Assembly: GCF_037041345.1 (NCBI RefSeq)
Contig: NZ_CP146287.1
Coordinates: 186,001-250,000 of the forward strand
Length of the DNA stretch: 64,000 nt
DNA from: Abiotrophia defectiva ATCC 49176
Lineage (GTDB): Bacteria; Bacillota; Bacilli; Lactobacillales; Aerococcaceae
Reading direction: 5' to 3'
The notes beneath the pieces were generated by a model, which made no database searches, had not been told where the DNA came from, and saw nothing but the letters and a program-made list of their open reading frames with translations. A program made the position numbers and the translations under genes. Positions 31,263-59,014 of the stretch are shown here, piece by piece (within the stretch, counting starts at the first letter, position 1; the number at the start of each line of letters is the position of its first letter).

Positions 31263-31478
31263 GAGCTAGTGGCCCACTTTTGAGAGTGGACCACTTTGGA
31301 GAGTGGACCACTGGCTCGGCTAGGAACCTATCAAAATGGCCCGAATCAGGAGGGAGGCATGAGCCAGTCCATTGATAGGAGGAACGATGGACTAGCTGCG
31401 AGCTTTTTCTATCAAAAAGGGCGTTTAGGGGTGTTTTTTGTGAGGCCAGTCCATTGATAGGCAGAACAATGGACTGGC
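31263..31478. repeat. tandem palindromic repeat array 1 (three units)
   Basis: Three inverted-repeat units lie between the cupin terminator and the pullulanase promoter. Unit 1 (31263-31317) has outer arms GAGCTAGTGG/CCACTGGCTC with an internal partial duplication. Unit 2 (31362-31397) has AGCCAGTCCATTG/CGATGGACTAGCT. Unit 3 (31445-31478) has perfect arms GCCAGTCCATTG/CAATGGACTGGC. Units 2 and 3 are 82 bp apart centre to centre, the same period as array 2 at 56.9-57.3 kb, and the spacers share words such as GGCTaGGAA, AAAAGGGCG and CATGAGC. Confidence 0.8.
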
Positions 31479-55393: not shown

Positions 55394-55548
55394 GCTTTTT
55401 GTTGGCGAAGGACGAAAATTCAAGTAAATTTTCTAATATTTTTAGGGGAATAGCTTGACGGGGTTGACCGGGCGGATGTAAAATATGTAATATAAATGTC
55501 TTATTTCTGTAATTATATCGCTTATCTTCCTACAAAGGGGTCTTGTTT

Positions 55549-56892
55549 ATGAAATCAGAGTTTTTAAGTAAGTATCGTCCGCAGCTTATTGCACTTGCCT
55601 TTGTTCTCTTTCTAGTGGCTGGATTCGCCATGATTGGCCTCCTGGCTGGCCAGCCCCACGATCATTTGCAGACGCTAGAGTCTGAGTCAGTGGTGAGTGA
55701 GAGCTCTAGCAGCGAGCCCCAGCCCTTGGTCTTGGCAGAACCCCTAGTAGGCCTCAAGGCTAAGGATCAGGAGACGCCTTTTGAAGGCAAGGAAGGAGAG
55801 CTCAAGCTACGCTCAGTAGGTGATGTCTTGTTGCATGAATTTGTCAGCGAAATGGCCAGCGTCAAGAATCCTTTCTACAAATCAGCGGTCGATCGGCTCC
55901 ACAAGGACGGCATCAGCTGGGAAAATCCAGGGGGCGCCTATGATTTCTATCCAATGTTGGCGCAGATTGCCCCTTATATGTCCTATGCCGACGTGACTTT
56001 GGCTAATATGGAAGTTATTGTGGCCAACCCTCAGTATCCGGTGACTGGTTACCCTTCCTTCAATGCGCCTAAGCAGATTATTAAGGCCCTTCAGGCTATC
56101 GGTGTGGACATGGTGACCAACGGGACCAACCATACCTTGGACTATTCGGCGCGTGGGGCGCTAGCCTCTATTGCTAACCTCAAAGAGGCACAGATGCCTT
56201 ATGTAGGGAGTTTTGAGAGCCAGGAAGATCACGATACCCCGCGCATTATCGAGAAGAATGGCATTAAGATAGGGATTTTGACCTATTCCTACGGTACCAA
56301 CGGCGTCCCCGTGCCAGAAGACCAGCCCTATTTGATTAACCTGGTAGACCTGCCTCAGATGGTAGAAGATGTCAAGGCCCTCAAAGACAAGGTCGATGCT
56401 GTGGTGGTGACTTTGCAGCTAGGTCAGGAATATGACACTACTCCAGATCCAACTCAGGAGCAAGTCTTCCAAGCCCTGAGCGATGCTGGCGTCAAATTGA
56501 TTTTGGGCGGCCACCCGCATGTCTTGCAACCTATGCAGTGGTTTAACGGCAAGCAGACCTTTGCCATCTACTCCCAGGCTAGCTTCATGTCGGGCCAAAT
56601 TTACCCGGCTAATAAGCAAGGGGGCATCACCGAGGTGACGTTCAAACGCGGCGAGGACGGACAAGTGACCGTCACCGATCCGAAGTTCATGCCAATCTAT
56701 ATTACGGGCGCCGAAAATGCCGAGTTCTACGAAACGGTGCCTATGGCTGACTACAATCGCTACGCGGTCACCGAGGGCGCCGACTGGTACGAGATTATTC
56801 GCCAGCGCATGCAGCTCTATACCAAAGACTTCCGCTACGTTAGCCACCTAGAAACCCAATGGACCCAGGAAGATACCGATATTCATCGCTAA
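55549..56892 (+). CDS. CapA-family (PGA_cap) metallophosphatase-like membrane protein
   Basis: 447 residues. An N-terminal membrane anchor (about 14-34) and Ser/Glu-rich linker precede the PGA_cap domain (about 85-360): LRSVGDVLLH, TLANMEVIV, VTNGTNHTLDY, GILTYSYGTNG, VVTLQLGQEYDTTP and LGGHPHVLQP. CapA homologues are extracellular calcineurin-like proteins first linked to poly-gamma-glutamate capsule; in this group, with no capBC, they are thought to act on wall or teichoic-type polymers. Note LQLGQEY in place of the usual HWGxEY. Start chosen at 55549, 8 bases after AAAGGGG. Confidence 0.87.
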   Translation: MKSEFLSKYRPQLIALAFVLFLVAGFAMIGLLAGQPHDHLQTLESESVVSESSSSEPQPLVLAEPLVGLKAKDQETPFEGKEGELKLRSVGDVLLHEFVSEMASVKNPFYKSAVDRLHKDGISWENPGGAYDFYPMLAQIAPYMSYADVTLANMEVIVANPQYPVTGYPSFNAPKQIIKALQAIGVDMVTNGTNHTLDYSARGALASIANLKEAQMPYVGSFESQEDHDTPRIIEKNGIKIGILTYSYGTNGVPVPEDQPYLINLVDLPQMVEDVKALKDKVDAVVVTLQLGQEYDTTPDPTQEQVFQALSDAGVKLILGGHPHVLQPMQWFNGKQTFAIYSQASFMSGQIYPANKQGGITEVTFKRGEDGQVTVTDPKFMPIYITGAENAEFYETVPMADYNRYAVTEGADWYEIIRQRMQLYTKDFRYVSHLETQWTQEDTDIHR

Positions 56893-56902
56893 TATAGTTT
56901 GC

Positions 56903-57346
56903 GCCAATGGCCCACTCCTTTGAGTGGGCCATTGGCTATGTGGGGGGCTGGAAAAAGGCGGAAAACGAGGTCCAAGCCGTGAGCTAGTGGTCCACTCCGC
57001 CGAGTGGACCACTAGCTGGGCTGGAAAGCTGGGAAAAGGGCGGGAAACAGGGAGAAAGCCGCGAGCTAGTGGTCCACTCCGTCGAGTGGACCACTAGCTG
57101 GGCTGGAAAGCATGGAAAAAGGGCGAAACCGTGGGAAAAGCAGTGAGCCAGTGGTCCACTTTGGAGAGTGGGCCACTAGCTCGACTAGAAAGCATGGAAA
57201 AAGGCCTGAAGCCGGGGAGCAAGCCATGAGCTAGTGGACCACTCCGTCGAGTGGACCACTAGCTGGGTTGGCAAGGCCGGAAAATGGCGGGATACGGGGT
57301 AAAAGTCGAGAGCCAGTGGCCGACTTTTTCGAGTGGACCACTAGCT
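56903..57346. repeat. tandem palindromic repeat array 2 (six units, ~82-bp period)
   Basis: Six 34-38-bp inverted repeats at 56903-56936, 56982-57017, 57064-57099, 57145-57182, 57229-57264 and 57311-57346. Centre-to-centre distances are 80, 82, 82, 83 and 82 bp. Units 2, 3 and 5 share arms of the type AGCTAGTGGTCCACTC/GAGTGGACCACTAGCT around a CGCC or CGTC centre. Units 1, 4 and 6 diverge. Spacers of about 46 bp are themselves similar (GGCTGGAAAG, AAAAGGGCG, GAGCAAGCC-type words). No cas gene, no transposase. Confidence 0.9.
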
Positions 57347-57385
57347 AGGCTGGAAAGGCCAAAAACCTGGGCTACTAGCTAGAAA

Positions 57386-57406
57386 AAAAGCCTTTTAGGG
57401 GCTTTT
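57386..57406 (+). terminator. terminator-like hairpin after array 2
   Basis: AAAAAGCC TTTTA GGGGCTTTT stem-loop. It would end any transcript that reads through the array from the CapA gene. Confidence 0.65.
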
Positions 57407-57490: not shown

Positions 57491-59014
57491 ATGACAGCAT
57501 CACATCACTCAAAGGGCCGGCGTCACGGTCACTCCCGCCCTAGTCATGGGCGGACTAAGTCAGTGCTCTGGCGGATTAACTGGCTCTTTATTATTTTGGC
57601 AGCGGTAGCTAGCGGCCTGGTTGCCTATTTCCTCTTAACCTACAAGATTCTGGCCGGGCGTGGCTACCATCTCTGGGTCTTGGGCGGCTTGGGCGCGGTC
57701 TTACTGCTCCTAATTCTGCTCAACGGCCTCAAGCGCCTAGGCAAGACCACCCTGGTCCTAGCCACGATCGTCATTTTGGGGGCTAGCTACGGCGCCTACC
57801 AAATGAATGCTACCGTCAATTTCTTCAACAAACTCAATACCAATACCCAGAAGCAGGAACTGACCATGAGCCTGGCTACCCTAGCAGAGGGCGGCGTGGC
57901 AGATGTGTCGGCCTTAGATGGCAAAGTGGTCCTAGCGCCGCTGGGCCAAGATCGCGACAATGTCCAAGCCTTAGTCGATGACCTCAAGGCCAAACGCCAG
58001 GTAACGGTGACCGTTGAGGAAGTGCCATCTTACCTAGCGGCCTACCAACAACTCCTGGACGGCAAGGCTCAAGCCATGGTCCTCAACTCAGGCTATGAGT
58101 CCCTCTTAGAAGGCATGGCTAGCGACTTCAGCAGCAAGATCAAGAAGCTCTATCAGTACAATCATGTGACCGAAGTAGCCGAAGAGCCGGCTAAGCCAGC
58201 GACGGAAACCCAGCAGACCAGCCAGACACCAGCTGAGAACCAGCCTTTCAACCTCTACATTTCAGGGATTGATACCTTCGGGCCAGTCAGCTCCGTCTCC
58301 CGGTCAGACGTCAACGTTATCGCCACTATCAACCCTAAGACCCATCAGATTCTTCTGACCACCACACCGCGTGACGCCTATGTACCCATCGCGGATGGCG
58401 GGGCAGACCAGAAGGACAAGTTGACTCACGCGGGGATCTATGGCGTGGAGGCTTCCATGCATACCTTGGCCCGTCTCTATGACACGCCAATCGACTATTA
58501 TGTCCGCCTCAACTTCACCTCCTTCCTCAATATCATTGATACGGTGGGGGGCATTGACGTTTACAACGACCAAGCCTTTACCTCCCTCTACGGCAAATAT
58601 GATTTCCCTGTCGGGGAACTCCACCTTAATGCCGACCAAGCCCTAGGCTTCGTGCGTGAACGCTACTCCCTGTCAGGTGGGGATAATGACCGCGGCAAGA
58701 ACCATGAGAAGGTTATTACCGCGCTGATTAAGAAATTAGGCAGTCGCCAGACCTTGCTCCAAGCCCAAGAAGTCATGGACCGCATGAGCCAGTCGGTGCA
58801 AACCAATCTGCCACTGGCTAAGGTCATGGAACTGGTCAACGAGCAACTTGAGAGCGGTCAAGCTTACACGGTTACCTCAGTCGCCCTGACTGGCCACGGT
58901 TCAACTGGCCTACCATCTTATGCTATGCCGGGCGCTGAGCTCTATATGATGCAAGTGGATGAGGCTAGCTTGGCTGAGCGTCAAGCTCAAATCAAGCAAG
59001 TACTAGGCCAATAG
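57491..59014 (+). CDS. LytR-CpsA-Psr (LCP) family glycopolymer transferase
   Basis: 507 residues. A short basic cytoplasmic tail is followed by three membrane helices (about 28-48, 55-75, 83-101), an accessory extracellular domain (about 110-225; PLGQDRDNVQAL, AMVLNSGYESLL), and the catalytic LCP domain (about 245-420): YISGIDTFGPVSSVSRSDVN, TTPRDAYVP, GGIDVYND and VRERYSLSGGDNDRG. LCP enzymes move polysaccharide or teichoic acid from lipid carrier to peptidoglycan. It begins a wall-related cluster with glf. Confidence 0.93.
   Translation: MTASHHSKGRRHGHSRPSHGRTKSVLWRINWLFIILAAVASGLVAYFLLTYKILAGRGYHLWVLGGLGAVLLLLILLNGLKRLGKTTLVLATIVILGASYGAYQMNATVNFFNKLNTNTQKQELTMSLATLAEGGVADVSALDGKVVLAPLGQDRDNVQALVDDLKAKRQVTVTVEEVPSYLAAYQQLLDGKAQAMVLNSGYESLLEGMASDFSSKIKKLYQYNHVTEVAEEPAKPATETQQTSQTPAENQPFNLYISGIDTFGPVSSVSRSDVNVIATINPKTHQILLTTTPRDAYVPIADGGADQKDKLTHAGIYGVEASMHTLARLYDTPIDYYVRLNFTSFLNIIDTVGGIDVYNDQAFTSLYGKYDFPVGELHLNADQALGFVRERYSLSGGDNDRGKNHEKVITALIKKLGSRQTLLQAQEVMDRMSQSVQTNLPLAKVMELVNEQLESGQAYTVTSVALTGHGSTGLPSYAMPGAELYMMQVDEASLAERQAQIKQVLGQ

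Follow-up and report, generated by a model that had tools for sequence, protein, structure and literature searches.

The BIME-2/REP elements of enterobacteria are tandem intergenic palindromes that occupy many loci, carry insertion sequences inside and have been proposed to play a role in DNA topology. The BOX elements of Streptococcus pneumoniae, a related Gram-positive bacterium, occur repeatedly between genes and contain a tandem portion that varies in copy number. The STAR elements of Staphylococcus involve a conserved 14-bp motif, T(G/A/T)TGTTG(G/T)GGCCC(C/A), which occurs in 1–7 copies at tens of loci, with locus-specific spacers of ~40 bp, and is scattered among species (PMC3532100). 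The E. coli gyrase motif has a 36-bp centre that is flanked on each side by 47 bp in which GC content is periodic, the motif being symmetric about the cut, and gyrase enrichment has been observed downstream of transcription units and within BIME-2 (PMC6379681). Periodic preferences of 10–11 bp were found for every gyrase tested, one of them from Bacillus (PMC12324340), and clusters of helically phased A-tracts, which are expected to curve DNA, have been described for bacterial nucleoids (PMC3940949). When we searched the literature, no paper reporting repeats such as those described below for Abiotrophia was found, and the RepRanger paper does not mention this genus.

Palindrome arrays in two Abiotrophia genomes

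The window analyzed here is a 64,000-nt stretch of DNA (C1:186001–250000) of a single-contig genome of 2,045,142 bp (source genome, G000), in which dnaA is located at position 22. An earlier note on this DNA had reported six palindromes between a capA-type gene and an LCP gene, and their coordinates (56902/56903–57346), their spacings and the near-identity of units 2, 3 and 5 were all confirmed from the sequence. Each palindrome arm is an 11-bp dyad (AGTGGNCCACT), and the two dyads lie 17 bp apart (centre to centre) inside GAGCY...RGCTC. On the forward strand, unit 1 (56902–56937) has a diverged core (AATGGCCCACT-N6-AGTGGGCCATT) with two mismatches to the two-dyad pattern AGTGGNCCACT-N6-AGTGGNCCACT. 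Unit 2 (56982–57017) carries a type I core that matches this pattern, as do units 3 (57064–57099), 4 (57146–57181) and 5 (57229–57264), and unit 6 (57311–57346) matches with one mismatch. The start-to-start steps are 80, 82, 82, 83 and 82 bp. The spacers, which are 44–47 bp long, contain A/T tracts (spacer 1, 56938–56981), four phased A-tracts (spacer 2, 57018–57063) or phased A-tracts (spacers 3 to 5 at 57100–57145, 57182–57228 and 57265–57310), as judged for spacer 1 from the sequence and for the others also from tract analysis.

Unit 1 begins 9 bp past the stop codon of the upstream gene (55543–56892, forward strand), which encodes a PGA_cap/CapA-type protein (PF09587, E 4.6e-59). The downstream gene (57491–59014, forward strand) encodes a LytR-CpsA-Psr (LCP) protein (PF03816, E 2.5e-39), and both neighbors had been named correctly before. 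This LCP gene shares 97% identity with its counterpart in Abiotrophia defectiva ATCC 49176. Residues 85–198 of the LCP protein (57491–59011) also matched PF02916 (DNA polymerase processivity factor, E 3e-16), but this is probably a misleading likeness of the LCP accessory domain. A terminator-like hairpin (AAAAGCC..GGCTTTT) can be seen by eye 3′ of the array at 57384–57406 (forward strand), although the terminator script did not call it, and its counterpart in a second Abiotrophia genome (G001) reads AAAAGCCCC..GGGGCTTTT (by eye).

At most one mismatch allowed, AGTGGNCCACT was found at 16 places in the window compared with 1.9 expected. In the complete source genome, the 28-bp two-dyad pattern (at most three mismatches) matched at 116 places and its reversed control at 0 places. 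These counts exclude a chance origin of the palindromes. The search for further copies that the earlier note had suggested thus uncovered a family of 24 arrays with 2–7 units plus one compound unit at 217281 (25 loci), with little dispersal of solo units and no linked transposase. G001 contained 109 matches. The pattern was absent from two further genomes of Abiotrophia (one being 77% complete), from 72 other Aerococcaceae and from the rest of 395 Lactobacillales genomes, except for one match with two mismatches in a single genome (G179), which was taken as chance. Since viral contigs contained no exact match to the pattern, a phage origin was rejected. Outside the arrays, two search patterns that cover about half of the possible isolated sites yielded only one dispersed 11-bp site, located inside a coding ORF, and a dispersed regulon was also rejected.

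The window contains a second locus (31264–31478), a mosaic array located beyond a strong terminator. It starts with a compound type I unit (31264–31316, forward strand), in which three 11-bp dyads follow each other at 17-bp spacing, and continues with two units of a second type, detected by a type II search at 31363–31396 (GCCAGTCCATTGATAGGAGGAACGATGGACTAGC) and, 82 bp past the preceding one, at 31445–31478 (both forward strand). Another three-dyad unit is present at 1832321, and such compound units are more readily understood as DNA sites than as hairpins. A search prompted by the type II pair of the window located type II units (GCYAGTCCATNGATAGGNNGAACNATGGACTRGC) with an 81–82-bp period at 217363/217445 (this pair in genome coordinates), 287894/287975 and 379732/379814, and there is a single diverged unit at 384907; relatives occur in G001. 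The 28-bp type II core differs from that of type I, while the outer GCYAGT...ACTRGC and the period are the same. In these few units, tract phasing appeared weaker by eye. A pure type II array comprises three units in the source genome (L092: 287894, 287975 and a third one with a CA insertion) and one unit in G001 (L094). Between 379732 and 384907 (L093), the source genome carries CRISPR-like repeats (GTTCAGATACCTTAATCCCCGAGAGGGGACGGAAAC), and the G001 counterpart of this region contains other genes, among them one that resembles a DNA cytosine methyltransferase gene; by eye, the region looks like a defence island.

Conservation of cores and spacers

The earlier note had pointed to a paired change in both arms of unit 1 and had proposed that base pairing itself is kept. 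The paired change (G-C to A-T) is indeed present, but the G001 ortholog of this unit carries the same change, and thus it represents one inherited event and not covariation. Among the type II units, a paired change is found in the one at 384907. When we analyzed the 217 units at the array loci of both genomes (unit counts inside one array are non-independent), Watson–Crick matches at the variable stem pairs amounted to 89 and 125, compared with 93.5 and 121 expected for independence. For the 60 distinct units, the covariation score was 0.062, the shuffled value was 0.063 ± 0.004, and 317 of 500 shuffles were as high or higher. Thus, the many copies that had been predicted do exist, but their arms do not covary, and the proposal that pairing is kept is not supported. 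C.A mismatches were present at stem pair 5 in 102 of the 217 units and C.A or A.A mismatches at pair 11 in 84, while some units can form a perfect stem of 16 bp. What is conserved in the stem is its sequence, not its pairing. Comparison with Rfam gave only sub-threshold chance matches to microRNAs. Pairing between spacer segments was near or under the between-array null (highest z 2.2), and RNA structure within the spacers was therefore rejected.

The 45–46-bp spacers contain four blocks near positions 9, 18, 28 and 38, which are 82–100% A/T. The tract letters are interchangeable, with A prevailing and T present in up to ~20–30%. Tracts are located ~26, 36, 46 and 56 bp from each dyad on both sides. 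The periodicity of the tracts at 10 bp reached a z of 38 against run-preserving shuffles, but since the units share ancestry this value cannot be read as a probability; what counts is that the layout is kept while the letters are not. For arrays with four or more units, the coherence of the tracts across the whole array peaked at 10.2 bp (0.70 vs. 0.23), and the peak was within 10.1–10.3 bp in 26 of 27 such arrays. Unit spacing was 81 or 82 bp in 151 of the 157 intervals. This 82-bp period corresponds to eight turns at 10.2 bp, the local tract phasing being 10.0 bp; it is not a multiple of 3, and a repeat protein was rejected for this reason. TpA steps, which weaken A-tract bending, were found in 2.6% of the 4-bp A/T runs, compared with 52% in the flanks. 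Helically phased A-tracts without TpA, as they define curvature elements, are thus present in the array spacers, and curvature is predicted, deduced from sequence rules. Among the options that the earlier note had listed, a protein-binding array with a phase of about eight helical turns is the best supported one, judged from unit spacing and tract coherence in the sequence.

Spacer identity was 81% within an array and 57% between arrays, with 49% for shuffled spacers and 53% when nothing but the A/T layout was retained. The high identity within an array, the variable palindromic cores and the lack of any cas domain among the scanned neighbors indicate that the array is not a CRISPR, which agrees with the earlier note. 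When we used a 26-position core consensus, 168 of the 217 units in both genomes were perfect and 41 had one mismatch (209 with at most one), although units were found by consensus similarity and badly decayed ones would escape. In orthologous arrays of equal unit number, the invariant core positions were 95–100% identical and the spacers 75–90%. Core letters and tract layout are what is kept, and the spacer letters are free. The cores look selected because conversion between arrays would have homogenized the spacers too, and the fact that decayed cores are almost lacking speaks for most copies being, or recently having been, in use.

Genomic position and turnover of the arrays

A simple script detected a same-strand terminator between the upstream gene and the array at 15 of the 25 loci, and most arrays are therefore not mRNA 3′ ends. 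Some arrays, including the one at 56903–57346, sit between a stop codon and a terminator and would be transcribed. At six loci, the 56903–57346 array among them, the array follows soon after a stop codon, and two loci lie between divergent genes. Location between convergent genes was observed for 9 of 24 arrays compared with 11 of 63 other gaps of at least 100 bp, and this difference was suggestive but not significant (p = 0.08). The neighboring genes have no common theme (IF-3, EF-P, G6PD, RsmF, sugar enzymes, regulators); several of them encode regulators of the MarR, TetR, LytTR and PRD types. It can be seen that 23 of the 24 arrays have leading-strand orientation, including 11 of the 12 for which the flanking genes are uninformative or opposed (p = 0.006). 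For this purpose, the purine-rich strand defined the orientation; replication skew confounds this measure in part, although features of the core alone gave the same orientation in 23 of the 24 source-genome arrays. No array is located in the region of 0.813–1.347 Mb around the expected terminus (p ~0.0007 if placement is independent, which is doubtful given the clustering).

Judged from its flanks, nearly every source-genome array has a counterpart at the same position in G001. The flanks are mostly 90–98% identical, but the interiors differ and unit numbers change, as at locus 693031, which contains 8 units (collapsed ones included) in the source genome and 1 in G001. The expected variation in copy number was therefore found for the units at orthologous loci, while the array loci themselves are stable. 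About ten arrays of G001 are broken by a ~1.3-kb IS256-family element (Transposase_mut), and this element is always inserted in a spacer (L060, L055, L058, L063–L065 and L067–L069, with possible tandem copies at L063 and L067). Where both ends were readable, six insertions showed clear 8-bp duplications (TAAACCGG, CAAAAACC, GCTTTTGC, CTTTTCCT, CAAAAGTC and ACTTTTTG), each of which contains an A/T tract. IS256-family and other insertion sequences also target REP palindromes (PMC1525189), whereas in the Abiotrophia arrays the insertions lie in the spacer. With about ten arrays broken in this way and one shrunk from eight units to one in G001, individual arrays are dispensable.

Three loci differ between the assemblies in other ways. 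An eight-unit array of G001 (1_60, C2:278376–278981) faces ~550 bp of unrelated AT-rich sequence in the source genome (L085 7608–8164 compared with L072), and therefore this empty-site comparison gave no clean insertion junction. Two source-genome arrays (L023 9339–12505 and L070 3080–3345) flank an alpha-amylase-family gene and G001 has one array there, as if the gene had been lost in G001 via recombination between the arrays or as if gene gain had split the array in the source genome. At C1:1194437 and C2:177105 of G001, the same array end with its flank appears twice in the assembly, which points to a duplication or, alternatively, to an artefact of assembling repeats.

Possible roles and comparison with described systems

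Since core letters and spacer A/T layout appear to be selected in a constant eight-turn frame, a sequence-specific protein on curved DNA is indicated. We consider the chances roughly balanced that the arrays are tandem sites for such a protein on DNA that is predicted to be curved, and thus a DNA-level element and not an RNA. Each unit would consist of a 36-bp core with two 11-bp dyads, and a 46-bp stretch of DNA for which intrinsic curvature is predicted would link it to the next unit. The cores would be bound by the putative protein, which is probably dimeric or tetrameric. With eight turns at 10.2 bp, every core would face the same way and the bends would add up over the array. The DNA may thereby fold, by wrapping or bending, into a compact nucleoprotein array that might control topology or packaging of the DNA between transcription units, in alignment with replication. 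Tandem gyrase-type wrapping sites would be one concrete candidate. Other candidates are proteins that wrap or bridge repetitive DNA, such as RemA, which is reported to bind repetitive DNA in Bacillus (PMC8481266). A more far-reaching version is a lineage-specific chromatin-like system, in which a dedicated protein would recognize interchangeable 28-bp cores (types I and II) in the eight-turn curved frame. By wrapping tandem units, it would form compact nucleoprotein arrays, and these would mark transcription-unit boundaries on both replication arms outside the terminus region. We regard this version as tentative and unlikely.

If the arrays were tandem strong DNA-gyrase sites, the core would be the cleaved gate segment and the 46-bp spacers would be wrapped around the C-terminal pinwheels of GyrA. 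Positive supercoils between transcription units would then be taken up in the manner of BIME-2 or the strong gyrase site of phage Mu, but in a regular array. The 36-bp core and the 45–46-bp spacers with their symmetric tracts match the geometry of the E. coli motif (36 + 47 + 47), and the gyrase enrichment seen in BIME-2 and downstream of transcription units (PMC6379681) as well as the 10–11-bp periodicity preferred by the gyrases tested, a Bacillus one included (PMC12324340), also fit. However, the tract period is 10.0 bp (10.2 over arrays) compared with 10.75 in the E. coli motif, although the host gyrase may prefer otherwise, and a period below 10.5 favors the opposite sense of wrap. Moreover, the core with its 26 invariant positions is unlike the degenerate gyrase motif, and an 82-bp period is too short for gyrase (~130 bp) to occupy every unit at once. 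The correlation with the annotated Mu site was weak (r 0.14 at the dyad and 0.23 one to two bp away, ~2 sd). Because period, invariant core and closeness of the units disagree and the Mu correlation is weak despite the match in geometry, gyrase was kept as a rival, which we consider quite unlikely. A selfish or neutral intergenic repeat (REP/BOX/MITE/STAR-like), which was dispersed long ago and turned over by unequal exchange, would account for the high copy number, the intergenic location, the restriction to one lineage and the variable unit number, and conservation would then reflect past mobility signals and not host use. Such an origin is plausible, and the array-specific spacers (81% identity within, 57% between arrays) resemble those of staphylococcal STAR elements (PMC3532100). 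Copy number and intergenic position are also the aspects in which the REP/BOX-like family envisaged by the earlier note held up, whereas the lack of a linked transposase, the scarcity of solo units and the stable array positions in both genomes speak against it. In addition, 209 of the 217 cores (found by similarity) have at most one mismatch though the spacers have diverged almost to the shuffled level, and the A/T layout is kept without the sequence. We therefore rate a selfish or neutral repeat as somewhat unlikely.

Readings at the level of the neighboring genes fare worse. A 3′-UTR hairpin array that stabilizes or terminates upstream mRNAs such as capA, as the earlier note had considered, would suit the position of the 56903–57346 array between the capA stop codon and the terminator-like hairpin and the perfect 16-bp stems that are possible in some units. 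This reading is very improbable, since covariation is lacking, stems are mismatched at pair 5 (102 of 217) and pair 11 (84 of 217), 15 of the 25 loci lie 3′ of a terminator and two between divergent genes, and neither Rfam matches above chance nor spacer pairing were detected. Ordinary operators, at which a transcription factor would regulate the genes beside the arrays, are improbable as well. Palindromic dyads are typical of HTH dimers and several neighbors are regulators (MarR, TetR, LytTR, PRD), but most arrays are located at 3′ ends of genes, nine of them between convergent genes, the flanking genes share no function, and single promoter-proximal sites were not found with the two search patterns.

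Across the ~220 natural copies in the two genomes, core letters, A/T-tract layout and helical period are retained, whereas spacer letters and arm pairing vary freely. The function of intergenic palindromic repeats is usually argued from position alone; for the tandem protein sites on curved DNA that we favor here, a role in DNA mechanics is directly testable. The arrays are ready-made tandem substrates for exploring how bacteria use sequence-encoded curvature, and if the gyrase link were true, they would constitute a regular array of strong gyrase sites.

With BIME-2/REP, the Abiotrophia arrays share tandem intergenic palindromes at many loci, insertion sequences inside and a proposed topology role, but they are direct repeats of one orientation (not alternating) with a strict eight-turn period and phased A-tract spacers. 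The GT(A/G)G (GTAG) head of REP is absent from the Abiotrophia palindromes, the conserved ends of which are GAGCY...RGCTC, and no RAYT gene was found beside the arrays, the IS200-like loci at 636884, 1290104 and 1519199 adjoining none of them. With no GTAG head, no adjoining Y1-type transposase and no alternating orientation, a REP/BIME system with RAYT was rejected. From BOX, the arrays are set apart by the description of that element and not by alignment, since they have neither boxA/boxC-like ends nor RNA covariation. A short conserved motif, spacers of similar length that are specific for the locus, tens of loci, a low and variable number of copies and a scattered occurrence among species are shared with STAR (PMC3532100), but the invariant AGTGGNCCACT-N6-AGTGGNCCACT of the 36-bp double-dyad core is not the 14-bp STAR motif, and a STAR element was rejected on this basis. 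The gyrase motif and the strong gyrase site of phage Mu (PMC6379681) have in common with the arrays a 36-bp centre, 46–47-bp arms, helically periodic A/T and dyad symmetry; they differ in period (10.75 compared with 10.0–10.2 bp), and the Abiotrophia core is invariant, with tandem units that share arms. Finally, the helically phased A-tracts expected to curve DNA link the arrays to the A-tract clusters of bacterial nucleoids (PMC3940949), but in Abiotrophia these tracts are concentrated between specific palindromes in discrete arrays.
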